From contig CM073327.1 in assembly GCA_037043015.1 (NCBI GenBank), positions 4,818,727-4,882,726 of the forward strand: a DNA stretch of 64,000 bases. The letters are read 5' to 3'. The position numbers and the translations under genes were made by a program. Positions within the stretch are counted from its first letter, which is position 1; the number at the start of each line of letters is the position of its first letter. The notes under the pieces are model-generated. The model was not told the origin of the DNA. It did no database searches and saw only the letters and a list, made by a program, of their open reading frames with translations. This document shows positions 37,360 to 45,209 of this stretch, one piece after another. This DNA is from Bryum argenteum. Its lineage: Eukaryota; Streptophyta; Bryopsida; Bryales; Bryaceae.

Positions 37360-39179
37360 TTATAACTTGTCTTCTTCTCTCTCTTCTGCTTTCTCCTCTT
37401 CTTTCTCTTCTTCTTTTTCTACTTCTTCTCTCATTTCATCTTCTTCTTCTTCTGTTGTGATATTGATTGGCTTGTTCTGTCTGGCATGAAAATCCGCTAG
37501 CAGTAACGATCCTGCAACGGGGCTCACTTTCGTCGCTAGCCAGGCTATGTGCTCGATACTAGCGAACACTTCTTCCTCCTCTTCTGTGTTGGGAAAAAGC
37601 TCCAGTATTGCGTAATTGAACCCCTTCGCTCTGTCTGGATTAAAGCCGGCCCCTGCACTTGCCTGGCCAACCGTAGGACACCTGCACGATTAATCATCCC
37701 GTCAACAATCATTCCAATCCTGTGAGTATTCCTATGGAGCCTGTAAGTTAGTATGTGTCAACTACCTGTGCTCTGAATGTTATCCAGTCAGAACATTGTT
37801 TGTGTATCAAGCCTCAGGAAAAGATCAAAGCCATGGGTTTGCAGTGAGTGTACTTGGAAGGTAGAAGCTGAATCGAGTTGTGTAGGAACCTCATGTCCTC
37901 TGCCGATGTTCCTTCCTTGATCTTCAAGAGGGTGATCCGCTTCGCGCCAATGTTTTCAAGGTATGGACCAGCGGGAATGCACTCCCAATCTACAGCAAGC
38001 AGGTCTCCAACCATGGGCTTCATCTTCGTTTGAATATCGACTTGGTCAGCATGTTCATAATATGCTTTTAAAGCTGCTCTATCCCGGTACCGCCCATGCA
38101 GAACGTGCGTATAATCACCTCCTTGAACCTGCACTTAACGACATAGTGAAAGGGTCCCGTTTTAGACGAAGGTTTGTGAGCAACAGCAAGAATCTTACCG
38201 ATAATGCTGCCCCGATTGTAAGCTCCATCACTCCATCAAGCTTCTGAAGCTCGTGCACAGCATCTAAGAGCACTTTTTTATCAACGAGATCCACATCTGG
38301 TTTTAACTTGAACATAACAATGTGCTCCACTACGGGATCTTCAAAGCGGGGGGCAGTAGACAAAAATGCCTCGTGCGACGCTCGCCGACTCGGTTGAGCT
38401 TTTTCAAGAATCTCCGCGGCCATGGTCTCTTTCGACCCCCCTCGGAACGCCACCTCCGCCGTTGTGGACGGTCTCCTCGGCCGCGAGAAATCTACTCCCC
38501 CGGACAGCGATGCCGATGCCGACCGAGAGTCTTCCACCGTGAAGCTCACCCGCGACTGTCGCGGATGATCCATTGTGTATCCAGTTTCCCCTTCAAATGG
38601 CCTCGGCGAGGGAGAGAAAAAATCAGTCGGAAAAGTGCCTTCTTCTGGCGGCGGCTCCTCCACTTGTGACGGTCTTGCTGACTTTGCAGGATCCCCGACT
38701 TGCGATAGTCGTGATGGTCGTAATCTCTCCAGAGCGGAGCCCTCCACTAGCGATGGTCTTGACGGCCGTGGTATCAGTTTTTCCGAATATTCTACCATAG
38801 TAGCATACTCTGCCTGCGATAGGTTTGATGGCCGGGGCAGCTCTATTGTGGAGTTCCCTGCTTGCGATGTTCTTGATGCCCGTGGAAGCTCCATTACGGA
38901 ACTCGCTGATTGCGATGATCTTGAAGGCCGTGGCAGCTCCATTATGGAATTTGCTGATAACGACGTTCTTGATGGCCGTGGGAGCTTCAATGTGGAACTC
39001 GCTGATTGCGATGGCCTTGAAGGCCGTGGCATCTCCATCACAGAACTCGCTGATAGCGATGGTCGTGATGGCCGTGGCAGCTCCGTTGTGGAATTTTGAG
39101 CTTGCGATGGTCTCGATGGCCGTGGCATCTCCATTACGGAATTCGCTGATTGAGACCATCTCGTTGGTCGTGGCTCCAT
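37360..39179 (-). CDS. Stress-response A/B-barrel protein with repeat tail
   Basis: Exons (5' to 3'): 39179-38199, 38128-37854, 37681-37360; 525 aa. Residues about 1-172 are imperfect 16-residue repeats of the type ELPRPSRPSQSASSV, then a low-complexity acidic/Ser-rich linker. From about residue 285 (VEHIVMFKLKPDVDL) there are two dimeric alpha/beta-barrel (Dabb) modules. The first ends near LLAVDWECIPAGPYL; the second starts GAKRITLLKIKEGTSA and includes RAKGFNYAILELFPN. The C-terminal 35 residues are an acidic Glu/Lys run (EEVEKEEEKEEEKAEE). Dabb proteins in plants are stress-inducible and bind small ligands or act as dimers. The repeat N-terminus is not part of the usual family. The gene converges on HDH, with only 32 bp between the stop codons. 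Confidence 0.82.
38665..39179 (-). repeat. 48-bp coding minisatellite (RPSRPS repeats)
   Basis: About nine 48-bp units in frame, each encoding a variant of MELPRPSRPSQSASSV. Because the unit lacks stops in several frames, long artefactual ORFs appear on both strands here (for example + 38575-39099 and - 38623-39294). Confidence 0.9.
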
Positions 39180-40440: not shown

Positions 40441-42240
40441 ATTGTACAGTAGGGTCCAACATGGAATGGCGTTTTTGGTTTTGCAGTGGGAAAAAAATCA
40501 AGTCAGCCTACTTTGGAAGCCTCTAGAGAGCTCAGAAATTGGTATTTTACCTTGAAAATTTTACCATAGGCTTGATATCAAGTTGTTAGTATGCCTACCA
40601 AGTTTCAAAGCCAAACAATTCACCAAAAAAAAGTTATTCAAAATCTACCAAGATAGGTAGCTGTAAATTATTTTTCACTCCTGCCAACTTTGACAGCCTC
40701 CCAAGAATTGAGATCATTTTTCCTTGCTTTGATTTTTTGTGGTAGAACACAATTTGTGTTATTGATATATGGTAAAAATCTGAAGTCCAAAATATTAGTG
40801 AAAAAAAAGATATTCCCAATCTACCAACATGTGTTATTTTGCGGTATGCTTGTAGAAATCAACTCCACTCCAACCAACTTTGACACCCTCCCAATGGCTA
40901 AAAAATGGCCCATTTGCCATGAAATTTTTGTCACAAGATAAGCTACATGTTAATGACTAGTGTGCCAAAATTCAAGCTCTTACACAAAGAAAGTAGCACC
41001 TAATCTACCAACGTGTATTTCCTCCATTCGCCTCTATGACTGATTGTAACCTAGCAGGCATGGAATGACATAGTTGAAGGAGTTTTTGACCACTAATTAT
41101 CTCCCACTCTCTCGCAATAAACACTCTTAAGTCACCTGTGTTTTTAGGGCGTATTGAACCATGTTGAACTGCATCTTTCAAATCTTTCAGAGATTCTGAA
41201 TTGGATTGAGATCATGAGAGTTTGCTGGCCAATCAAGCTTCTCTAAACAATGTGCGTGCCTCCATTCTTTACTTAGTTTGCTTCTATGGACAGGAGCACC
41301 ATCCTCCATGAGTAATTATTGTGGTTTTTTCTTCATAAAATGAAGTAACTCCCCATTGTAAACCACTTCAACAAAATCCTTTGCAAAGCGCCGATCCTTA
41401 GGCATAAAAACAAGTCGTGACTTCTGCCCTCCAGAAAATGCACCCCAAATCATCAATGAAGTCCTACCACTCTTGAAAGATGGAACTATACAACTTGAAG
41501 CAAAGCGCTCATGCACATTTCTCCAAACATGAATTTGTCTATAGTTTCTACCAACTTCAAACGTGGACTCATCCATCCAAACAACTTGCTCCCACTCTTC
41601 CGCACTCCATCCATGATACTTTTTAGCAAAAGCTAATCGTTGAAATATGTGATGAGGTGTCAAAAAAGGTTGGTAGATTAGGTGCTACTTTCTTTGTGTA
41701 AGAGCTTGAATTTTGGCACACTAGTCATTAACATGTAGCTTATCTTGTGACAAAAATTTCATGGCAAATGGGCCATTTTTTAGCCATTGGGAGGGTGTCA
41801 AAGTTGGTTGGAGTGGAGTTGATTTCTACAAGCATACCGCAAAATAACACATGTTGGTAGATTGGGAATATCTTTTTTTTCACTAATATTTTGGACTTCA
41901 GATTTTTACCATATATCAATAACACAAATTGTGTTCTACCACAAAAAATCAAAGCAAGGAAAAATGATCTCAATTCTTGGGAGGCTGTCAAAGTTGGCAG
42001 GAGTGAAAAATAATTTACAGCTACCTATCTTGGTAGATTTTGAATAACTTTTTTTTGGTGAATTGTTTGGCTTTGAAACTTGGTAGGCATACTAACAACT
42101 TGATATCAAGCCTATGGTAAAATTTTCAAGGTAAAATACCAATTTCTGAGCTCTCTAGAGGCTTCCAAAGTAGGCTGACTTGATTTTTTTCCCACTGCAA
42201 AACCAAAAACGCCATTCCATGTTGGACCCTACTGTACAAT
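40441..42240. mobile_element. 1.8-kb perfect fold-back (572-bp arms)
   Basis: Arms 40441-41012 and 41669-42240 are reverse complements with no indel (paired coordinates sum to 82681) and no mismatch in the parts compared. The 656-bp spacer holds a Tc1-like transposase fragment. Outer ends read ATTGTACAGTAGGGTCC; no clear target duplication. The left arm is the natural 3' flank of the transposase (it carries the family's TCTACCAACGTGTAT junction), whereas the right arm replaces the transposase 5' half. This points to an inverted duplication of the 3' flank. Confidence 0.93.
41013..41668 (-). pseudogene. Tc1-like transposase fragment (in fold-back spacer)
   Basis: Minus-strand remnant starting at the LTPHHIFQRLAFAKKY region, so the DNA-binding N-terminus is missing. 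It keeps VVWMDESTFEVG (first catalytic Asp) and LMEDGAPVHRS (second Asp). A stop precedes the second motif, and the third catalytic position reads NPIQN, with Glu replaced by Gln. The last part matches the C-terminal MPARLQSV-type end. Not functional. Confidence 0.85.
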
Positions 42241-42801
42241 AGGGTGACATTCAAATTGGCCGTTTAGTAGTTCCAGGGATAGTGTCCTACATTGCTGCCA
42301 ACTTTGACACCCTCCCCAAAGCTGAGAAATTTTTATTTTACCATGAAAATTTGGGGACAACATCATCTTTATGTTGAAAACATGCATACCAAATTTCAAG
42401 TCCAGGAGACTTATACAAAAAAACTTAGGCAAGATCTACCAACATGGGATAGCTGTGAGAAAAGTGTCACAGCTGCCAACTTTGACACCCTCCCAAGAAT
42501 TGAGGAAATTTTTTTTGCCCATGAAATTTTCGGAGCAAAAACATTTTTATGTTGTTTGCATGTGTGGAAAATTTCAAGTCCAAAAGACCCATACAAAAAA
42601 TAATATTCCAAATCTATCAACATGTGTAGTTTTGAGAAACAAAGGGGAAACCATTTTACTACTTCCAACTTTGACGCCCTCCTTAGGATTGAGTTTTTGT
42701 TGATACATAGTGAAATTTTTGGCACAAGATCATCTCTACGCTGGTAACATATGAGATAAATTTCAAAGCCAAAAGATGTACACAAAAAAGTTATTCCATA
42801 T
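42241..42801. repeat. Subterminal repeats of the Tc1-like element
   Basis: Diverged units of about 180-190 bp, each starting near CCAACTTTGACACCCTCCC (about 42297, 42477 and 42666) and containing CTACCAACATG. The same unit occurs twice in each fold-back arm (about 40687 and 40877). Confidence 0.75.
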
Positions 42802-43811
42802 CTACCAACGTGTATGTCCTCCATTAGCGTCAATCAGTGCTAGTAACCTAGAGGGCATAGAATGACATAGTTGAAGGAGCTTTGTACCATTGACTAACTT
42901 CCACTCTCTTTCAAGAACTACCTTCAACACATCTAAGTTTTTAGGGCATTGTTTGCCATGTTGCACAACATCTTTTAACATCCTCCAAACGTTCTCGATT
43001 GGATTGAGATCGGGAGAGTTTGCAGGCGAGTTGAGCTTTTCGAGAAGGTGGCTTTGTCTCCATTCTTCACATATTTTGCTCCTATGGACGGGTGCCCCAT
43101 CTTCCATAAGCACTCCTTGTGGAATTTGACCCATGAAATGAACCAATTTGGCATCGAAAACCACTTCTATAAAATCCTTAGCAGAACGTTAACCTTTAGG
43201 CATAAAGACAAGTTGTGACTTTTGTCCTCCGGCAAATGCGCCCCAAATCATTAAAGAAGTCCTTCCACTTTTAAAAGTAGGAGCTAGACAACTTGATGAA
43301 TAACGCTCGTATGTACTTCTCCAAACATGAATTTGCCGAGAATTTTTTCCAATTTCAAAAGTGGATTCATCTGTCCAAACAACACGCTCCCACTCTTTTG
43401 CACTCCATCCACGGTACTTCTGAGCAAAAGCTAATCGTTGAGACATGTGACGAGGTGTCAAAAAAGGTTTTTTGACTGCAATTCGACTAAAAATGCCATT
43501 TTTATGTAAGACCCTTTGAATAGTACGTCTACACACTTGAGTAGGACATCATTGGTAATCTCTGAGAGTGAAGAGCAACGATGAATTTTTGAGTAATGCA
43601 CAATACTACGAACATCTCTATCACTAAGCTTTTTAGCGAGACTTCCACCGCAAGGTTTGCGCTTGTAGGTTCCATCTTCTCTAAATGTTTTTACTAACCT
43701 TGTAACTGTTCTAATAGGAACTCCAATAGTAGCTGCAATTTGAACTCCTGTAAATCCTCCCTCACTCAAACCTATGATGCGAGCACGAATTTCATCTGAA
43801 ATTGCCATCAT
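42802..43811 (-). pseudogene. Tc1-like (DD34E) transposase, two lesions
   Basis: About 335 codons, the usual Tc1 length. The N-terminal helix-turn-helix half runs from MMAISDEIRARIIGLSEGGF (43811) with LAKKLSDRDVRSIVHY. The DDE half has VVWTDESTFEIG, LMEDGAPVHRS and SPDLNPIENVW. The spacing between the second Asp and the Glu is 34 residues, the Tc1 signature; mariner-like elements of flowering plants are DD39D. A one-base frameshift lies near 43540 and a TAA interrupts the frame near 43188, where the fragment at 41013-41668 has a sense codon. Otherwise open, so inactivation looks recent. Terminal inverted repeats were not found. Confidence 0.88.
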
Positions 43812-45209
43812 AAACTTATAGAGTGCGTGATGCTAGCTACAGCAGTAGAGTAGGGATTAGAGTAGAGCAAGGGGGAGAGAAGGGAGCCAAGGTGCTGGAG
43901 CAGAGAGGAGAGAGAAGGGTCGCCAAAACACAAGCCCATATGCATACATGAAAAATCATTTTGCTCTTAATCACTCATCATGTATGCCCAATGTGAATCA
44001 ACACTCATGCATCCCACAATACAACACTCTTTGTTTTGAGGATTGTCTCAACATTCAATCTATCATTTTGCTCTTATTATGCAACCCTAGTCATTATGGC
44101 TTTCGCAGCGAAAGCAAAGGTAGAGTGCAAAGGCCAATTGTGAAACTGCGGCTACTCCAAATTCTGTAAGGGAACAAGAAGGGGAGCCGGAATGTGCCTC
44201 CCTCGGCCCACTCTCTAGTACGTTGAAGGACCGTATGTCCAATTCGGTCAATTTTTGAGTTGAGGTGAACTGCCAATTCTGCCAGCCATATTCCGCCAAG
44301 CTTGCCGATTTGATAACCATAGACAATATACTCTATTGGACATAAAATTCTTTACACTAGAGAAGTTGTAGGGTAGTGCCAATTCGGAAGTATGGTTCAG
44401 CAAGCTAGCCCTACAGGCTCGCCACTGACCTCACCATCAAATTGAAAGTCTTCTATCCAATTTATGACCTTTTTGTAAAGTGAACATATCAACTTAAAGT
44501 TTTACGCATGGGCGCACTTAAAACCAAAGAATAAAAGTAACCGATGAAGCATTGAGAGCTTTCATAATAGTATCTATTTTCATTAATTTTACCCTACTAC
44601 TATTTAGAAACTTTGATTGGTGCGACCTTTCACATAAATACCACAACTTAATTGGGAAATTCACAATTCCTTGATGTTTTTACAATACATTTTTTGAGCA
44701 CAATATCTAGTTTTATTTTCGTTCTTCATTTGTACTTCTAAAGTGAAAGGTCGTCTTACAATTGACTATGAATTATTACATTTCAATGCTAGCCTCAAAT
44801 AGGCTAATATAAAAAAGCACCAATGGTTCCCCTTGTATTGTGCCAGCTCTATCGCGAGCTCTGTCCATAACCGCAAGTTACGGGGATTTCATTCATATAC
44901 TAAATTTGCTCTCTATTCTCCAATCTTTCTCCTCCAATCCCCCCCTCGTCGGAAATCCCTCCTCACCAAACTCCACCTTCCCCTTTGTATTAGCTTTTCT
45001 GACAATCCCCTCAGAGGAGGTTACATTAGACAAAATGCCTCCTTAAAATGGATGAATAATAAACTCCTCTTCTATTATCATCCATCAAATACCACTCAAA
45101 ACTATAAAGATAATTTCACCGCAATAACCTTCTCAAGAATATTTCCACATCGCTTTCACGTGCATGATAAGTCACTGCAAAAAGGGTAGGCAAGGGGCCA
45201 AGCCCTTTC
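43812..45209. other. Intergenic, no gene supported
   Basis: Contains the 35-bp block related to 28504-28538 at about 44181. Open frames of 60-118 codons lack motifs. Confidence 0.5.

Follow-up and report, generated by a model that had tools for sequence, protein, structure and literature searches.

A perfect inverted repeat around a transposase fragment in Bryum argenteum marks a probable non-autonomous derivative of a Tc1-like family with long inverted ends

How does a perfect inverted repeat come to enclose part of a transposase gene, and need such a structure be young, or a silencing locus? The question is raised by positions 40441-42240 of the window, by which we mean the whole 64,000-nt stretch of the Bryum argenteum genome that was analyzed (contig CM073327.1, positions 4,818,727 to 4,882,726). 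The initial annotation read this locus as a very recent, local inverted duplication that could act like the Mu killer locus of maize. The perfect 572-bp inverted repeat that it described is confirmed: in a pairwise comparison of the arms, 40441-41012 (plus strand) and 41669-42240 (minus strand) are reverse complements at 572 of 572 positions with zero indels, and a repeat search of the window extends the same pair to 579 nt at 99%. Chance cannot plausibly give an exact match of 572 bases.

The outermost six bases of the repeat (ATTGTA; 40441-40446 and 42235-42240) are flanking sequence. The element itself spans 40447-42234 on the minus strand (1,788 bp; termini CAGTAGGG...CCCTACTG) and is bordered on both sides by TA, read in the flanks as target-site duplications at 40445-40446 and 42235-42236, the latter of which also abuts the tip of a neighboring element. 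The left copy of the repeat is the element's 3' arm, of which there are many further copies in the genome, and the right copy is its 5' arm, the inner end of which proved in the arm comparison to be of the 3'-arm type. Between them lies a single-copy spacer of 656 bp (41013-41668, minus strand) that corresponds to roughly the 3' two thirds of a transposase gene and is not open throughout; this assignment rests on 94–97% identity to the nearest other genome copies, and the ORF at 41316-41663 had no Pfam hit at E ≤ 0.1. The gene lacks its 5' third, and the missing part (~1 kb) comprises the region upstream of the transposase together with its first ~114 codons.

DNA searches of the genome (258.8 Mb in 25 contigs) gave at least 41 matches for the spacer and at least 44 for the arm, with 40 candidates scored in each, and 18 two-armed copies (the window copy and 17 from the genome) make up the comparison set. 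A land-plant host is indicated by 32 DYW-domain matches. Fuller members of the family are ~2.6–2.8 kb long and carry inverted ends of ~550 bp around a DD34E transposase, in the order 5' arm, ~650 bp, transposase and 3' arm (e.g., L044; 2.8 kb). Because the fuller copies already have them, the long inverted ends are native to the family. Open frames were looked for in L044 and L046; the transposase is a single open frame of 335 aa in the former, and its frame is broken in the latter. The L044 protein has the Pfam domains HTH_23, HTH_Tnp_Tc3_2, and DDE_3, hence two helix-turn-helix domains, and its only PDB match is the catalytic domain of Sleeping Beauty (E 8.3e-27). Its catalytic triad consists of D147 (assigned by eye), D237, and E272, with 34 residues between the last two. 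TA target-site duplications are present at 33 of the 37 readable ends of 19 copies (one end unresolved), including both ends of the window copy; at the four misses (L051, L052 at two ends, and L059) the tip is mutated or the anchor misplaced. The family's DD34E transposase and TA flanks thus bear out the Tc1-like identity initially proposed.

The window copy differs from fuller copies at a breakpoint (41666-41671, minus strand) where an inner arm end of the 3' type (CTACCAAC) meets transposase sequence (CTTTTTTGACACC; AAAAAACCTTTTTTGACACC in L045 and L051), with the three nucleotides AAC common to both. This breakpoint has six matches in the genome, all of them exact even though three mismatches were allowed, and none in the control. 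The six copies constitute a ~1.8-kb class (the window copy and the five others with the same junction, L039, L040, L041, L042, and L049); they sit at separate sites with differing flanks, are TA flanked, and have cores that cluster in a tree (support 86) and differ by 2.1–5.8%. Because the breakpoint is found six times at separate sites, the rearranged form must have moved as a unit. A new inverted duplication in situ, as initially suggested, was rejected on account of both the shared junction and the divergence of the cores, and we infer that the rearrangement happened once, elsewhere or earlier, and that its product then moved. Perfect palindromic arms of 572 bp are difficult to assemble, and one of them might have been collapsed or mirrored in the assembly; such an artefact is scarcely credible for an architecture that recurs at six places with different flanks, with slightly different arms in five of them, and that has TA on both flanks. 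The structure in the window, within a Tc1-like family whose terminal inverted repeats are long, is very probably a non-autonomous deletion derivative.

The suggestion that the 3' flank had been copied, inverted, over the 5' half of the element holds in part. The innermost arm sequence on the 5' side is of the 3'-arm type and is joined to the middle of the transposase gene; most of the inverted repeat, however, predates that event, as the ~550-bp arms of the fuller copies attest. The founder would have arisen once, when copying along the arm left the inner end of the 3' arm at the 3-nt match AAC and continued in transposase sequence. The simplest setting would be a repair, broken off before completion, of the gap that excision leaves, after which the founder may have been carried to other sites by transposase made elsewhere. 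Ds of maize is an example of deletion derivatives made when gap repair is interrupted; these keep their ends and have a few shared bases at the junction. The Bryum derivatives are like them in the internal deletion and the shared bases, and unlike them in that sequence from the opposite arm is also joined at the junction. A further derivative, L059 (G000:C7:9079400-9080190), is ~0.65 kb long and has 170 and 488 arm bases in inverted orientation, with a 4-base overlap at the join.

Comparison of arms across the family points to concerted evolution of a copy's two arms. Within the six short copies, arm-to-arm substitutions number 0, 4, 4, 3, 2, and 9, vs. 7–33 between copies; of the private changes, 37 occur in both arms of the copy concerned and 16 in only one arm, and chance would account for about 0.3 such coincidences in total. 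Across the full set of 18, shared-private sites (confined to one copy and present in both its arms) number 72 and occur in 17 copies, the exception being L043 with zero, and sites private to one arm number 109, whereas 200 shuffles of the partners gave a mean of 4.4 shared-private sites and a maximum of 35. In a tree of 30 arms, which omits L043, L047, and L050 (3 of the 18 copies, whose arms carry large indels or inserts), partners are sisters in all 15 pairs, with support of at least 91 in 13 of these and of 68 and 48 in L046 and L049. By raw distance, the nearest arm is the partner for just 27 of 36 arms, and the 5' arm of L049 (L049_5) is closer to that of L042 (L042_5) than to its own partner. 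The perfect arms of the window copy are not unusual, because those of L044 (identical over 529 compared positions) and L058 (over ~530) are also without difference. From these patterns we infer that arm-to-arm conversion keeps the ends alike; the arms would be homogenized by gene conversion within a copy, or by gap repair templated on the opposite arm. In the 1.8-kb copies, arms and cores disagree on closest relatives; exchange between copies therefore also occurs, and could mimic or blur conversion within a copy.

The direction of copying can be followed with a 7-bp marker (CTAAAAG) near the inner arm end. Among the longer copies, the marker is present in 10 of 12 5' arms and in 1 of 12 3' arms, one 3' arm (L050) being interrupted at its position; L045 has it in both arms (gained at the 3' side), and L055 and L058 have it in neither (absent at the 5' side). 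Among the short copies, L042 has the marker in both arms, and L049 in the 5' arm only. Such a pattern is expected if copying runs in both directions. L042 and L049 lie ~70 kb apart on C2 and have 5'-arm changes in common, which are found in one arm of L049 and in both arms of L042, the states that precede and follow copying of one arm onto the other. In the founder's 5' arm, the innermost ~25 bp, at least, must derive from the 3' arm, and this 5' arm may have been copied wholly or at its inner end only; L042 and L049 keep the 5'-type marker, yet later exchange could have supplied it.

Given this concerted evolution within copies, identical arms do not show a recent origin, and the initial inference from arms without indels to a very recent duplication is not upheld. 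In a comparison of 19 cores, 14 changes are private to the window copy, whose arms nevertheless show zero differences, and in 16 copies (L043 and L058 left out) arm divergence bears no relation to private core changes (rho 0.11, p 0.69), on which ground dating from the arms, in the manner of LTRs, was rejected. Alternatively, each copy might have inserted recently with identical arms that then diverged with age, without conversion at resident copies; some copies do have few private core changes, and the homogenization that is needed at some stage could be tied to each transposition. This alternative is unlikely, in view of the missing relation to private core changes and of the window copy itself; moreover, in plain cut-and-paste transposition both arms come from the donor, and thus copying is still required for the arms to be identical when the element inserts. 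Under arm-to-arm conversion, the perfect match in the window would mean that one arm was recently copied onto the other, not that the element arose recently. Several comparisons were set aside: the window copy's private changes in arms (3/568) vs. core (14/657; p 0.025), for which six copies and 19 are not like for like; the lower arm divergence of the six short vs. ten longer copies (p 0.044), from which two longer copies were left out, including L058 with no arm difference; and methylation from the base-change spectrum, the transitions (31 of 53 private arm changes) being too few to argue from.

A long perfect stem-loop of this kind is in principle a good dicer substrate, and the element would supply a perfect stem of 566 bp and a loop of 656 bp; a hairpin from a transcript of the window element is thus possible. 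The stem sequence is common to the ends of family copies, which would hold the transposase promoter if this lies in the 5' arm. Had the locus arisen as a recent in-situ inverted duplication, read-through hairpin RNA could have given rise to small RNAs that silence the family, as at Mu killer. We consider this highly improbable: the structure is present at six places and moved after forming, and the stem consists of end sequence and only the last transposase codons. Furthermore, a similar hairpin would be expected from L044, with its open transposase frame and identical arms, and could come from any two-armed copy. The Mu-killer-type role put forward earlier does not fit the anatomy of the locus, in which the transposase fragment forms a single-copy loop outside the inverted duplication. 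Mu killer of maize, as described in its source, has transposase-gene sequence within its inverted duplication (PMC3440606); the window element is like it in being a transposon-derived inverted structure that includes end sequence, and unlike it in that the transposase fragment is single and six copies exist. For Physcomitrella, the report on PpTc1 states that no small RNAs match its coding sequence (PMC4054914). As judged from sequence, a Mu-killer role for the window copy is weakly supported, and most likely the element is a non-autonomous passenger of the ordinary kind.

The neighbor on the right is a second, related Tc1-like family element (42237-44065, minus strand; 72–77% alike) that is cut at its 5' end, with its upstream region partly lost; a search of the window as far as 46500 revealed no 5' arm. 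This element stops at 44065, and fuller copies continue to a 5' arm. Among three copies of the second family that were examined, L060 has a perfect inverted repeat (604/604), L061 has 3 mismatches in 582, and L062 has 11. The second-family copy at G000:C8:16017070-16018366 consists almost only of its two arms, 8 bp apart. In the window, the two elements meet back to back at one shared TGTACA (42226-42245; the only match without mismatch). TG stands outside the TA at 29 of 37 readable ends, which indicates TGTACA as the preferred target. Because the element ends begin with CA, insertion into TGTACA recreates TGTACA on both sides, and elements can therefore come to lie back to back, as they do here. 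In the genome, 20-base two-tip junctions around one TGTACA were found at 38 sites, with each site counted on both strands, vs. 1 for the reversed pattern; the 38 are an upper bound, in that a single amplified junction could account for seven sites that are almost the same, and two more are the ends of L041, with flanks that merely resemble a tip. A six-base duplication of TGTACA was rejected in favor of TA: L042, L046, and L047 have TGTACA at one flank only, and their ends stay CAG...CTG.

Another tip, TGTACAGTGGGGTACAG, has 334 matches in the genome vs. 2 in the control, often as inverted pairs ~944 bp apart (e.g., G000:C1:1630155-1631098 and C2:334306-335249), and probably belongs to a high-copy non-autonomous family. 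Elsewhere in the window, a frame at 38115-39179 (minus strand) has imperfect 48-bp (16-residue) repeats rich in PRPSRPSQ, and adjoins a stress-response A/B-barrel (Dabb) domain at 37814-38134.

In both families, the arms also contain direct repeats 176–190 bp apart (40625-40654, 40676-40704, 40801-40830, and 40866-40894 in the first; 42290, 42468, and 42657 in the second), a spacing close to the nucleosome repeat; these possibly provide several candidate transposase binding sites. Long inverted ends with internal direct repeats are a feature of animal Tc1-like elements with IR/DR ends (Tc3, Minos, and Sleeping Beauty), from which the Bryum elements differ in having several repeats at this spacing and a plant host. 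Closer to hand, PpTc1 and PpTc2 of the moss Physcomitrella share the DD34E transposase of ~335–338 aa, CAGT...ACTG-type termini, TA duplication, and a land-plant host (PMC4054914); these elements, however, are 1,584 and 1,709 bp long with 33-bp inverted ends, unlike the fuller copies here (~2.6–2.8 kb with ~550-bp arms), which lack the short ends described there. Among the literature matches listed, no plant Tc1-like family with long ends was found. In Drosophila mojavensis, the report on Galileo (P superfamily) describes long inverted ends that are 98–100% alike within a copy, as well as copies with ends extended by inverted copying, and its authors propose conversion (PMC3573991). The Bryum elements work like Galileo, and resemble Foldback/Galileo elements in that the long inverted ends of any one copy are alike, but with a Tc1-type transposase and TA they are not members of that group, for which a P-type transposase and 7-bp duplication are described (PMC3573991).

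Tentatively, one process may both keep the ends alike and make the non-autonomous forms. A gap left after excision would be refilled from the sister copy with either arm as template; complete copying would homogenize the arms, and overrun or a jump would yield derivatives that carry arm-type sequence in new positions, such as the 1.8-kb class, L059, and the 604-bp arms of L060. In addition, insertion into TGTACA would seed the elements' own back-to-back landing sites.

A perfect long inverted repeat around a piece of transposase thus need be neither young nor a silencing locus, and end-to-end identity cannot date elements of this long-ended kind. The families described here add long-ended Tc1-like elements to land plants, in which the moss families so far described have 33-bp ends (PMC4054914), and their set of copies is tractable material for the question of how inverted ends stay alike.
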